From NCBI GenBank assembly GCA_012727635.1, contig JAAYGQ010000085.1:1-47521 (forward strand): 47,521 nucleotides of DNA. The letters are read 5' to 3'. The translations under genes and the position numbers were made by a program. The stretch comes from Tissierellia bacterium. GTDB taxonomy: Bacteria > Bacillota > Clostridia > Peptostreptococcales > Acidaminobacteraceae. Under the pieces are notes generated by a model that saw nothing but the letters and a program-made list of their open reading frames with translations, searched no databases and was not told where the DNA came from. Of this stretch, positions 3,257-16,553 are shown one piece after another. Position 1 is the stretch's first letter, and every line of letters starts with the position of its first letter.

Positions 3257-4132
3257 TTACTTATTTTTTGTCAGGTACTTTTCTTCTAAAGCCCTAGCCG
3301 AAGGGGTAGCGGCAATGCCTCCTAGAGCTGTCTCCCTTAGTGCCTCGGGTAACATCCTTCCTACCTGATACATGGCCTCTACAACCTCATCAAAGGGAAT
3401 CGGTGAAGTAAGTCCAGCCATGGCTAGATCGGCGCTTATAAAGGCATTAACGATGCCCGAAGCATTACGCAAAGAGCAGGGAAATTCTACAAACCCCGCA
3501 ATGGGATCGCAAACCAGCCCCATAATATGTATAAGAGCAAAGCTCGCAGCGTGGAAAGCGGCTTGCGGTGACCCTCCCATAAGTTCTACCAGGGCGGCCG
3601 CTGCCATGGCCGCTGCTGTACCACATTCAGCTTGACAGCCTCCATCGGCTCCACTAATGGTTGCCGATATAGCAACGATTTTTCCAACAGCTCCCGCCGT
3701 ATAAAGACCTAGGACTAGATCATCTTCATTTAAGGAAAGTTTTTCCTTGGCACTCATAAGGGCCGCAGGCAAAATACCCGACGCTCCCGCCGTAGGAGCA
3801 GCCACAATTCTCCCCATAGATGCATTTACTTCGGAAGTTGAAAGAGCCCTGGCCATGGCTGATAGGATAAATTCACCGCTTAGTGAAGCTTCTTTTCTGT
3901 GATTCCACAACTTTTTAGCACTGCCACCGGTCATTCCCGATAGGGAAAAAACTTCCTTTTTAAGACCCAAAGAAGAAGAATCCGCCATAATAGCTAGGAC
4001 CTCCTTCATATTTGCATCCAGTTGCTGGGCTGTTAGAGCTCCGCTACTGGCTTCATCTTCTCTCGTTAGCTGGCCTATGCTAGATTTTTTCTCTTCACAT
4101 TCTTTTAGGATATCTGCTGCTTTGTAAATCAT
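3257..4132 (-). CDS. sdaAA: L-serine ammonia-lyase, iron-sulfur-dependent, alpha subunit
   Basis: 'GRIVAAPTAGASGILPAAL' and Cys motifs 'CQAECGTAAAMAAAAL', 'CDPIAGFVEFPC'. Confidence 0.95.
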   Translation of the reverse strand: MIYKAADILKECEEKKSSIGQLTREDEASSGALTAQQLDANMKEVLAIMADSSSLGLKKEVFSLSGMTGGSAKKLWNHRKEASLSGEFILSAMARALSTSEVNASMGRIVAAPTAGASGILPAALMSAKEKLSLNEDDLVLGLYTAGAVGKIVAISATISGADGGCQAECGTAAAMAAAALVELMGGSPQAAFHAASFALIHIMGLVCDPIAGFVEFPCSLRNASGIVNAFISADLAMAGLTSPIPFDEVVEAMYQVGRMLPEALRETALGGIAATPSARALEEKYLTKNK

Positions 4133-13404: not shown

Positions 13405-13660
13405 GCCTCCTGGCTTCTCATTATAAAAAAAACGGCTTGACGTTAGGGACGTCAAACCGTGGTACCACCCTATTTCTGCCTTTCGGCACTTTACAAGCGT
13501 TAAGGGGCTTTCCCCGCAAATCTAAAAGGCGACCTTCGTATCCACTATGGGAAGATTTTCACCAAACATCTTCTCTCTAGAGCCATAGGCGGAACTACTC
13601 TTCCTCTATTACTAATCTACAAGATGATAATAGGCCTTTTATCTCCCTTTGTCAATCAAA
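13405..13660 (-). promoter_or_regulatory. T-box riboswitch leader of valS
   Basis: Minus strand GGGTGGTACCACGG (13457-13470), then terminator CGGTTTGACGT-CCCTA-ACGTCAAGCCG-T8; upstream 'GAAGGTCGCC' gives a plausible GTC (Val) specifier (13531-13533). Confidence 0.92.
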
Positions 13661-15124
13661 ATGAAGAGGGATTTCTAGGAGGATACGACCTTCTTGCTGA
13701 GCACTCAAAAAATGATGGTTCTGAAGATATTCATCTATGATATCAAAACTTGAGGTACTTACGCAGCGGATCGGTCCATTGGTCTTGATTCTTTCGATAT
13801 TTATTCCAAAGGTTTCTTCCAGGATCCCGTAATGAAACATCTGCATAGCAATCTTGTATTTATCTTCTTTTTTTAGAGGTTGACCTGAAAATAGTACCTC
13901 CTGGACTTCCCCATGACCTTCCACTCTTACAGATACATTCTGGCTGTATTGATAAAATTCATGGGTCTCTCCGGCATAAACTTTTTTGAAAAAAGTCCCT
14001 AGCATATTTTTAAGCTCCTGACCATCGACGGTAAAGCTCATGATGGCTTCATCATAGGGAAAAATTTCTCTTAATTTAGAAAGGGTTACTATCTCCTCCA
14101 TCCTAGTACCCCGGATGGAACCCGATCCTAAAATAAACAGATCGACATCCAGCTGATTTCTGAACATATCAGCAAATAAGTTTCCCAGTTCTGTTTCCAC
14201 GTAACGACTAGGATGTTCTAGCGGTCTTTTGAGCCTTGAAATCAAACTATTGTACTTTATATCCACTTCCCTTGAATAGTTCTCCAAGACTTCGTCCAAG
14301 ACATAATCTCGGGGACAGTGACTATCATCTATGGGAATGGCCTCCCAGGTAAACTCATGAATGGAATTGGTATCCATATTGATAATAATATCAAAGCGTC
14401 CAATATGAGTACTTCCCGTACCCACCTGAGCGATAAGAATATCCTTTACCTTAGCTGGCTGATCCATCATGGTATGGGAGTGACCTCCTAAAATAAGGTC
14501 TACCCCGATTTCTTCGGGAAGCAGTCCTGCCAACTCTACATCCTTATCAAAACCAATATGGGTTAGCAAAACCGTGAAGTCAATATCAACATCCTTATAG
14601 TTGTTGCAGATATACTCGACCTCTCTGGCGGCTTCTCTCACATCAACAAAGGATCCTAAAAGGGGGTCGCGTCCTGCATAACTTAATATATCCTCGGTAA
14701 TTAGGCCAATAAAAAGAATGCGAATTCCACCTACCATCATAACCTGGTGACTCTTAAAAAGCCTGGTATTGGTAGGGCGAATATGAAGGTTGGCATTTAT
14801 AATAGGAAAGTGGGCGCAGCGCTCAAGAAACATTAAATGGGCCAGCCCATAGTCAATCTCGTGATTGCCCAGGGTCACAATATCGGGCCCGAGGAGATTC
14901 ATCACATCGATGGTGGACACTCCCCGGTACTCTTGATCGATAATGGAGCCCTGGAGCATATCTCCTGCAATGGCGTAGATAACATTTTCTTCTTCCCTGC
15001 GGACTTTTTGAACATAGCCCGACAGCAAGGAGAGACCTCCTAAGAGGGCCTCATTGTCCTCTTTTGCGAAAAAATCGCCATGAATATCGTTATTATGGAG
15101 TAAAGTAAGTTTTTTAAACTTCAC
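13652..15124 (-). CDS. Bifunctional UDP-sugar hydrolase/5'-nucleotidase family protein, no signal peptide evident
   Basis: 'LTLLHNNDIHGDF', 'TLGNHEIDYG', 'LILGGHSHTM'; GTG start overlapping the TGA of the upstream PspC gene, SD AAAGGAG. Confidence 0.9.
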   Translation of the reverse strand: MKFKKLTLLHNNDIHGDFFAKEDNEALLGGLSLLSGYVQKVRREEENVIYAIAGDMLQGSIIDQEYRGVSTIDVMNLLGPDIVTLGNHEIDYGLAHLMFLERCAHFPIINANLHIRPTNTRLFKSHQVMMVGGIRILFIGLITEDILSYAGRDPLLGSFVDVREAAREVEYICNNYKDVDIDFTVLLTHIGFDKDVELAGLLPEEIGVDLILGGHSHTMMDQPAKVKDILIAQVGTGSTHIGRFDIIINMDTNSIHEFTWEAIPIDDSHCPRDYVLDEVLENYSREVDIKYNSLISRLKRPLEHPSRYVETELGNLFADMFRNQLDVDLFILGSGSIRGTRMEEIVTLSKLREIFPYDEAIMSFTVDGQELKNMLGTFFKKVYAGETHEFYQYSQNVSVRVEGHGEVQEVLFSGQPLKKEDKYKIAMQMFHYGILEETFGINIERIKTNGPIRCVSTSSFDIIDEYLQNHHFLSAQQEGRILLEIPLHFD

Positions 15125-15528
15125 TTGGACTCCTTTCTCCCCCAAACCAAATAGGCACCTAGGCCAATTAGAATCAAGGGCCAGATTAGACCTCTTGCAA
15201 AGTGTGGCAGCAGAGGGATGAGATAGCGCTGTGCAAGAAGTACTACACCAATAAAGACCAATATTACTCCTAGGGCAAAGCCGGTATTGTTTTTCTCATC
15301 GGCGCCATAAACCTTTTGCTGTGCATTATAGGCCCTATCTTCAGGGTTAATAGGTTCCTTGGGTAAAACAATGGCCGCCAAAAAGTAAAAAAGTATCCCT
15401 ACTCCCATAAAACCCATAGCCACAAAAGCCAGCCTTATAAGTGTCACATCAATACGAAAATATTCAGCCATTCCACCGCATACTCCCGCTAGGATAGAAT
15501 CACTGTTTGATCGGTATAAGTGTTTCAT
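15121..15528 (-). CDS. PspC domain membrane protein
   Basis: 'LYRSNSDSILAGVCGGMAEYFRIDVTLIRLAFV...FYFLAAIVLPKE' plus two further TM segments. Confidence 0.9.
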   Translation of the reverse strand: MKHLYRSNSDSILAGVCGGMAEYFRIDVTLIRLAFVAMGFMGVGILFYFLAAIVLPKEPINPEDRAYNAQQKVYGADEKNNTGFALGVILVFIGVVLLAQRYLIPLLPHFARGLIWPLILIGLGAYLVWGRKESK

Positions 15529-15531
15529 TGC

Positions 15532-16482
15532 CTACCTCCCATTTCTTTTGGGGATTACAAGAGCCGCTATAATATAGGCTAACACTCCCGAGCCTCCCAT
15601 GACTGCAAATAGGAGCCAGGCAAGTCTTACTACATTGGAATCAATTCCAAAGTATTCGCCGATGCCGCCACAGACTCCTGCCAACCGGGCATCATCGCTT
15701 CGATAAAGTTTTTTTGACTTCATTGATTCTCCTTGGAAAAAATCTCTTTCTTCCTTTACTTCTTCCTCTACCTTTTTTTCTTGGTAGATCATGCGGTCCA
15801 TTTCCTCTGAGAGTTGTTGCAAAATAAGATTATCTACATCATAATAAAATCCATCAATTTTTCTAACAGGCAGTACATGAATCGAGGTACCGCTCATAAA
15901 GGCCCCTTCCATGGTAAAGAGCTCATCGGTGCGCACCGTTCTTTTCACCACAGTAATATTGAGCTTCTGGGCAATGTCAAGAACCTTTTGCCGAGTAACT
16001 CCCAGTAGGACATCTTCATCCTTGGCGGTAATCAGAACACCATCTCTAATAAAGAAAATATTGGCTCTCTCACACTCGCCGACTTCCCCGCCATAAACGT
16101 AAAGAAGAGAATAAACGCCCTTTTCTTCACGATAGCTTTTGGCCCGCTCAATAAGCTGGGGATCGATAAATTTGACTTGAGGGTTGTGGCGCAGATGTTC
16201 AAAGGTGGCAAGAAGCACTCCCTCTTTTTTCATCTCTTCGGTGGGGTAGGTTCCTTCCACGGTTTGAAGGGTATAGGCTCCATCGCCAACTTCAACTTCA
16301 ATGCGAAGATTGTGAGGGTCCTGTCTTTGGGCGGCAAGATCAACAATTTGTTTTTCCATGAAAGTCAGATCCATTGCTTCTTGGTTATAAAACTCCCAAG
16401 ATTTTTGTAATCTATCCAGATGCTCTTTTAAAAAAACGGGTTTTCCCTCTAACACTCGCAAAACTTCATAAATTTTTTCCAT
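15532..16482 (-). CDS. Class IV aminotransferase (BCAT/ADC-lyase fold) fused in frame to a C-terminal PspC domain
   Basis: N-terminal 'LKEHLDRLQKSW...VKFIDPQLIERAK...GECERANIFFIRDGVLIT...LLGVTRQKVLDIA', then 'LYRSDDARLAGVCGGIGEYFGIDSNVVRLAW...IPKRNGR' in one ORF. Confidence 0.85.
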   Translation of the reverse strand: MEKIYEVLRVLEGKPVFLKEHLDRLQKSWEFYNQEAMDLTFMEKQIVDLAAQRQDPHNLRIEVEVGDGAYTLQTVEGTYPTEEMKKEGVLLATFEHLRHNPQVKFIDPQLIERAKSYREEKGVYSLLYVYGGEVGECERANIFFIRDGVLITAKDEDVLLGVTRQKVLDIAQKLNITVVKRTVRTDELFTMEGAFMSGTSIHVLPVRKIDGFYYDVDNLILQQLSEEMDRMIYQEKKVEEEVKEERDFFQGESMKSKKLYRSDDARLAGVCGGIGEYFGIDSNVVRLAWLLFAVMGGSGVLAYIIAALVIPKRNGR

Positions 16483-16553
16483 ATATACCTCCAGTTGCAT
16501 GTCTTAAGTATACCACTTTTTGTAACAATTATTCATCTTTGCCCTGGAAAAGC

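Follow-up and report, generated by a model that had tools for sequence, protein, structure and literature searches.

DtolTA of Desulfobacula toluolica is a monomeric fold-type IV D-alanine transaminase that carries out a half-reaction, deaminating D-alanine and, weakly, D-glutamate, in which transamination is not completed (PMC11673721). In the accessible text of one Psp survey, PspC proteins possess two transmembrane (TM) helices, the first of them cryptic, around a conserved arginine (PMC11237479), and this text and that of a second survey list histidine kinase, Toastrack, LiaI-LiaF-TM, PspB, PspA and HAAS as partners to which PspC is joined in multi-domain proteins (PMC11237479, PMC9239133).

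The window examined here, meaning the whole analysed stretch of 47,521 nucleotides, encodes a protein that combines features of both systems: a class IV aminotransferase (AT4) is followed in the same reading frame by a PspC domain, which DtolTA does not possess. Both domains are common, and PspC again appears as the membrane module of a larger protein, but here it is attached to a metabolic enzyme, unlike the signalling or membrane domains that are its partners in the accessible text of the surveys (PMC11237479, PMC9239133). The word 'aminotransferase' does not occur in the main text of either survey, in so far as that text was accessible, and a literature search for PspC together with aminotransferase returned no relevant paper, in agreement with the original prediction, which knew of no described enzyme with this architecture. 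Because an aminotransferase-PspC fusion was encountered neither in the surveys nor in the literature search, the architecture is judged to be new to the literature searched; it is built from known parts, and its function is one that we infer. The fusion is real and conserved at the level of the genus, with a retained internal start, and expression of two products is predicted from the sequence. The explanation that appears probable is a genus-level fusion of a DtolTA-like AT4 gene with a short pspC gene, such that the enzyme would be tethered to the membrane and free PspC would also be made.

The fused gene and its distribution

The reading frame of the fusion is open on the minus strand from 16500 to 15532 (Table 1). 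An ATG located 18 bases further upstream would give a protein of 322 aa, but the ATG at 16482 is the better start, because GGAGG lies 5 bases before it and the orthologue in a second species of the genus (genome G002) begins at the matching methionine. The AT4 part matches Aminotran_4 (PF01063; E 4.2e-34, residues 10-215 of 322, profile positions 2-223 of 223) with a score of 118.8 bits, surpassing the curated cut-off of 28.5 across the whole domain, and the PspC part matches PF04024 (E 1.6e-22, positions 1-57 of 58) with 79.5 bits against a curated cut-off of 25. Both domains are thus essentially full length, in line with the uninterrupted open reading frame that had been reported. Matches to defence-system models were not found, promoter and terminator scans of the locus gave results at chance level, and the coding strand has no terminator at the junction. 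A structure prediction for the 316-aa protein alone had a mean pLDDT of 37.7 and was discarded.

Table 1. Location of the fused gene, its parts and its downstream neighbour in the window
Feature	Position	Strand	Remarks
AT4-PspC fusion ORF	15532..16482	minus	316 aa; same fusion at G002:C53:7056-8033
Shine-Dalgarno GGAGG of fusion gene	16488..16492	minus	upstream sequence ACATGCAACTGGAGGTATAT
Class IV aminotransferase domain (Pfam Aminotran_4)	15856..16473	minus	Pfam profile match
Schiff-base lysine codon (K104 of 316)	16171..16173	minus	aligned to K137 of DtolTA
Charged acidic linker, 27 aa	15724..15804	minus	stand-alone AT4 homologues stop within its first residues
Internal Shine-Dalgarno AAGGAG, 5 nt before internal ATG	15729..15734	minus	also in G002
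Internal in-frame ATG	15721..15723	minus	start of possible free 63-aa PspC; 63 aa in G002 too
PspC domain of fusion	15547..15714	minus	Pfam PspC match
Second, long PspC gene, 135 aa	15121-15528	minus	PspC + LiaI/LiaF-like TM; Pfam

The second species carries the same fusion on contig 53, with 53% identity over residues 2-319 and no stops, and the downstream order is that of the window: a second pspC gene, then a nucleotidase-like gene. A frameshift or missed stop at the junction was sought by comparison of the two species and none was found, the frame being open in both; nor are the orthologues always two separate genes, since that of the second species is also fused. An assembly or sequencing artefact that joined two genes, to which the fragmentation of both genomes (250 and about 160 contigs) might point, is extremely improbable: two separate species, in independent assemblies, share the junction yet differ in the sequence of the linker, and the second fusion refutes this reading.

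The fusion is known from only two species. At the levels of family (41 genomes), order (395) and class (391), searches at strict E-value limits (1e-30, 1e-38 and 1e-33, respectively) detected no further AT4-PspC fusion, although such limits could miss a distant one. A third genome of the genus (G001), 86% complete, gave no match to PspC and did not contain this AT4; completeness is 86-92% across the window's own genome (G000), G001 and G002. A scan of contigs with exact peptide patterns returned almost only stand-alone PspC genes, and the longer matches that were checked were not AT4 fusions.

The enzyme domain and its likely chemistry

Among solved structures, DtolTA (9j0u/9j0v) matches the enzyme best, with an E-value of 6e-24 across residues 8-238 and 69 of 231 aligned residues identical (30%). 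The lysine of VKFID aligns with K137 of DtolTA, which bears out its earlier assignment as the Schiff-base lysine, and the proposal that LLGVTR binds the cofactor is upheld by the alignment of its VT with the phosphate-binding residues V197 and T198. Residues K110 (Schiff base), E142 (N1-binding), R30, T169 and T205 (all three phosphate-binding) of the window enzyme (322-aa numbering) correspond to K137, E170, R53, T198 and T234, and the cofactor residues Y34, V36, R53, K137, E170, R173, N175, L194, V197, T198, R199 and T234 of DtolTA are all kept, but T232 is replaced by serine. Part of the O-pocket also differs (K91R, Y106Q, S142Q and R144I in the window enzyme), the first ~23 residues of DtolTA are missing, and the features sought as marks of a DtolTA-like enzyme, the E4-K91-Y106-R144 network and the N-terminal helix at 22-27, are not matched. 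Like the enzymes of genus g20, the window enzyme is without ~25 N-terminal residues present in most relatives, a region that helps classical enzymes to dimerise. Stand-alone AT4 proteins of 243 aa in two genomes (G021 and G032; most others have 250-290 aa) belong to the same subfamily, and several stand-alone AT4 genes share the place of the fusion next to a dinB-like gene; unlike the fusion, the AT4 proteins of sister genera are not joined to PspC, and most have the additional ~25 N-terminal residues.

By analogy with DtolTA, the enzyme may act on a D-amino acid, with D-alanine the likeliest candidate; an identity of no more than 30% to DtolTA and the differing residues of the substrate pocket make this assignment unsure. 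The D-amino-acid transaminase model TIGR01121 scores 77.6 bits, below its equivalog cut-off of 277.45, and no NCBIfam equivalog model reaches its cut-off for the window protein. The window's genome yielded a single further class IV enzyme, with an open frame of 341 aa, which is probably a branched-chain aminotransferase, judging from its length. Glutamate racemase (MurI) is present in the same genome, so the supply of D-glutamate is independent of the AT4, which is ruled out as the sole source.

The original prediction had allowed for a pABA-type enzyme. The window contains folE, folP and folK genes (identified from translations), and PabC shares the class IV fold, but a membrane-tethered aminodeoxychorismate lyase is a most improbable identity for this protein because no PabB was found in the genus or the sister genus: a chorismate-binding enzyme (PF00425) was not found in G000, G001, G002, G021 or G032. 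It is present in genomes G018, G030, G004 and G005 of other sister genera, and these carry an additional class IV gene, which adjoins it in three and is a fragment in G004. All aminodeoxychorismate lyase models remain below their cut-offs, TIGR03461 with 61.4 against 176.85 and the others lower. Thus the earlier interpretation stands as regards a real fusion and a membrane tether, and is set aside as regards pABA.

The PspC domain and the junction

The hydrophobic segment of the PspC domain has a mean hydropathy of 2.2-2.4 over 19 residues, and the conserved PspC arginine is kept (NVVRLAW). Tethering of the enzyme to the membrane, as predicted earlier, is borne out by the sequence, there being no stop between enzyme and membrane domain; translation of the enzyme to its end always runs on into the PspC part, which leaves the enzyme membrane-tailed unless cut, and since no stop separates the domains a soluble enzyme can arise only by proteolysis. 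The PspC equivalog TIGR02978 scores 41.4, below its cut-off of 104; the domain resembles the short PspC of tandem pairs (about 60-65 aa) in kind, in size and in being the first of a short-long pair, but elsewhere the short PspC is a separate gene. PspA/IM30 (PF04012) had no match in G000 or G002, with positive controls from E. coli and B. subtilis, nor was PspA found above the curated cut-off in the sister genomes tested; thus any Psp role would be of a PspA-free kind.

These observations bear on the putative link to an envelope-stress sensor offered in the original prediction, and on the idea of a sensor-enzyme, in which PspC would sense envelope stress and switch the enzyme, or the enzyme would sense PLP or a D-amino acid and switch PspC. 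PspC joined to histidine kinases and similar signalling domains is taken as a sensor module in the accessible text of the surveys (PMC11237479, PMC9239133), genus g85 has a fusion of the AT4 subfamily with a MocR-type regulator, and many genomes have AT4 and pspC close together; however, the present fusion includes neither a regulator nor a two-component partner, PspA is not found, and there is no sign of allostery in the sequence, which leaves a sensory role decidedly doubtful.

The linker between the domains is acidic, as had been noted (10 D/E against 5 K/R in 27 residues), and probably consists of a translated former intergenic stretch together with the end of the C-terminal helix. Identity between the window and the second species is 26% in the linker, compared with 58% in the AT4 and 56% in the PspC part, and the two linkers differ by ten residues in length. 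Both contain an internal Shine-Dalgarno sequence before an in-frame ATG, which, like the second pspC gene downstream, was absent from the original prediction. In the second species the junction reads AAGGAG-6 nt-ATG (in full, TAAGGAGG), in a codon phase that differs from that of the window; the signal is in phase 1 in one species and in phase 0 in the other, so that the likeness between the two junctions lies in the DNA signal rather than in the peptide. The matches comprise 6 and 8 bases in the two fused species. In pooled relatives, a match of at least 6 bases at a fitting distance precedes 42 of 2489 internal Met codons (1.7%), and a match of 8 bases precedes three of the 2489 (0.12%).

The 63-aa part that begins at the internal ATG agrees in length with the stand-alone short PspC proteins of sister genera, which have 62-63 aa. 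Because the Shine-Dalgarno sequence and ATG are kept in both species despite a linker only 26% identical and a different phase, the cell probably produces free 63-aa PspC in addition to the fusion, from the retained pspC start. In-frame internal starts that give paired products are an established phenomenon in bacteria (PMC11005335). Conservation of the signal in two related species could be partly due to chance, since codons for K, E and G residues can yield SD-like DNA.

Origin of the fusion and related gene arrangements

In a phylogenetic tree, the AT4 parts of both fusions and the unfused 243-aa AT4 of genus g20 form a fully supported clade; the g20 genes have the same location, with dinB-like and ftsY/smc genes as neighbours, and PspC was not found in that genus. 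In sister genera, AT4 stands alone or lies 1-11 kb from a tandem pspC pair. Elsewhere in the family and order, genera often have pspC in tandem, a short gene (about 60-65 aa) with its own start preceding a long one (about 130-165 aa), sometimes with a LiaF-like gene next. In 11 other genomes, AT4 and pspC are found on a common contig at a distance of 1.2-10.5 kb; random placement within 11 kb is expected in about 0.7% of 3 Mb genomes, and shared ancestry makes these cases dependent on one another. Both fused species have exactly two PspC domains, one fused and one long, which corresponds to those sister genomes that have one short and one long; since these are the only copies found, the fused PspC takes the position of the short pspC, and the long gene is the second, downstream member of the ancestral tandem pair. 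A tree of PspC built on 59 columns lacked resolution and did not group the two fused domains, and is too weak to prove descent of the fused PspC from the short copy.

The simplest history would be that a DtolTA-like class IV transaminase gene came to adjoin the tandem pspC pair and then lost its stop codon, which put the short pspC into its reading frame. What was once intergenic sequence, including the pspC ribosome-binding site (RBS) and ATG, would now be translated as the acidic linker; ribosomes may also initiate at the internal site, and the free 63-aa PspC would retain the function that the short PspC had ancestrally alongside the long one. The enzyme itself would face the cytoplasm on the inner membrane, near the cell-wall machinery. 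In genus g17 a tRNA-dehydratase-like gene lies between AT4 and pspC, and deletion of an intervening gene is plausible, but only that, because the window's genome keeps a more distant tRNA-dehydratase-like copy elsewhere.

A surviving RBS would mark an intermediate stage of gene fusion, with two genes already joined but the former stand-alone product perhaps still expressed. Conserved fusion and conserved neighbourhood together are a 'Rosetta stone' hint that PspC proteins and this little-known transaminase subfamily act together at the envelope. A more elaborate reading, that a dual-product gene invariably delivers a D-amino-acid transaminase to the inner membrane by its PspC tail and ties the D-alanine pool for cell-wall synthesis to a PspA-free envelope-stress module, with free PspC supplied from the internal start and the ratio of products set by the two RBSs, is unlikely.

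The AT4 subfamily is joined to other proteins also. In one genome (G051) it is fused in frame to PepT (peptidase T) in a protein of 688 aa (L143:5568-7634, minus strand), and in genus g85 it forms the C-terminus of MocR-type regulators of 727 and 731 aa (L141:3647-5830 and L142:3038-5233, both minus strand), in the order GntR, fold-type I aminotransferase, fold-type IV aminotransferase. Because of these fusions the subfamily appears prone to fusion, which supports as well the possibility of neutral read-through, namely that a stop was lost by accident, the tail is tolerated, the internal start supplies PspC, and tethering has no function. The retention of the RBS and ATG and the confinement of the fusion to one genus are consistent with such an accident. 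However, the two species share the open frame despite their deep divergence, across a linker 26% identical and with a net length change of whole codons, and neither species has regained a stop; functionless read-through is therefore considered rather unlikely, and the reading of a tethered enzyme with free PspC is preferred.

Several minor features of these genes were noted. In the PepT fusion, AAAGGA, a weak SD-like sequence, stands before what is likely to have been the start of pepT. The MocR fusion unites two unrelated PLP folds in a single protein, and two genomes of genus g85 (G355 and G362) have similar long open frames. In the window, the LiaI/LiaF-like TM segment that ends the long PspC is just below its cut-off, and a 5'-nucleotidase-like gene (13652-15145) directly follows, where relatives have a LiaF-like gene. 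A neighbourhood of AT4, pepT, UspA-like, tRNA-dehydratase-like, serine dehydratase and pspC genes recurs in the family (L034, L035, L036-L043). A strong internal Shine-Dalgarno sequence (AAGGAGGT) precedes an in-frame Met at codon 49 of a serine dehydratase alpha-subunit-like gene of the window (3257-4132, minus strand), of which the annotated start may be too early.
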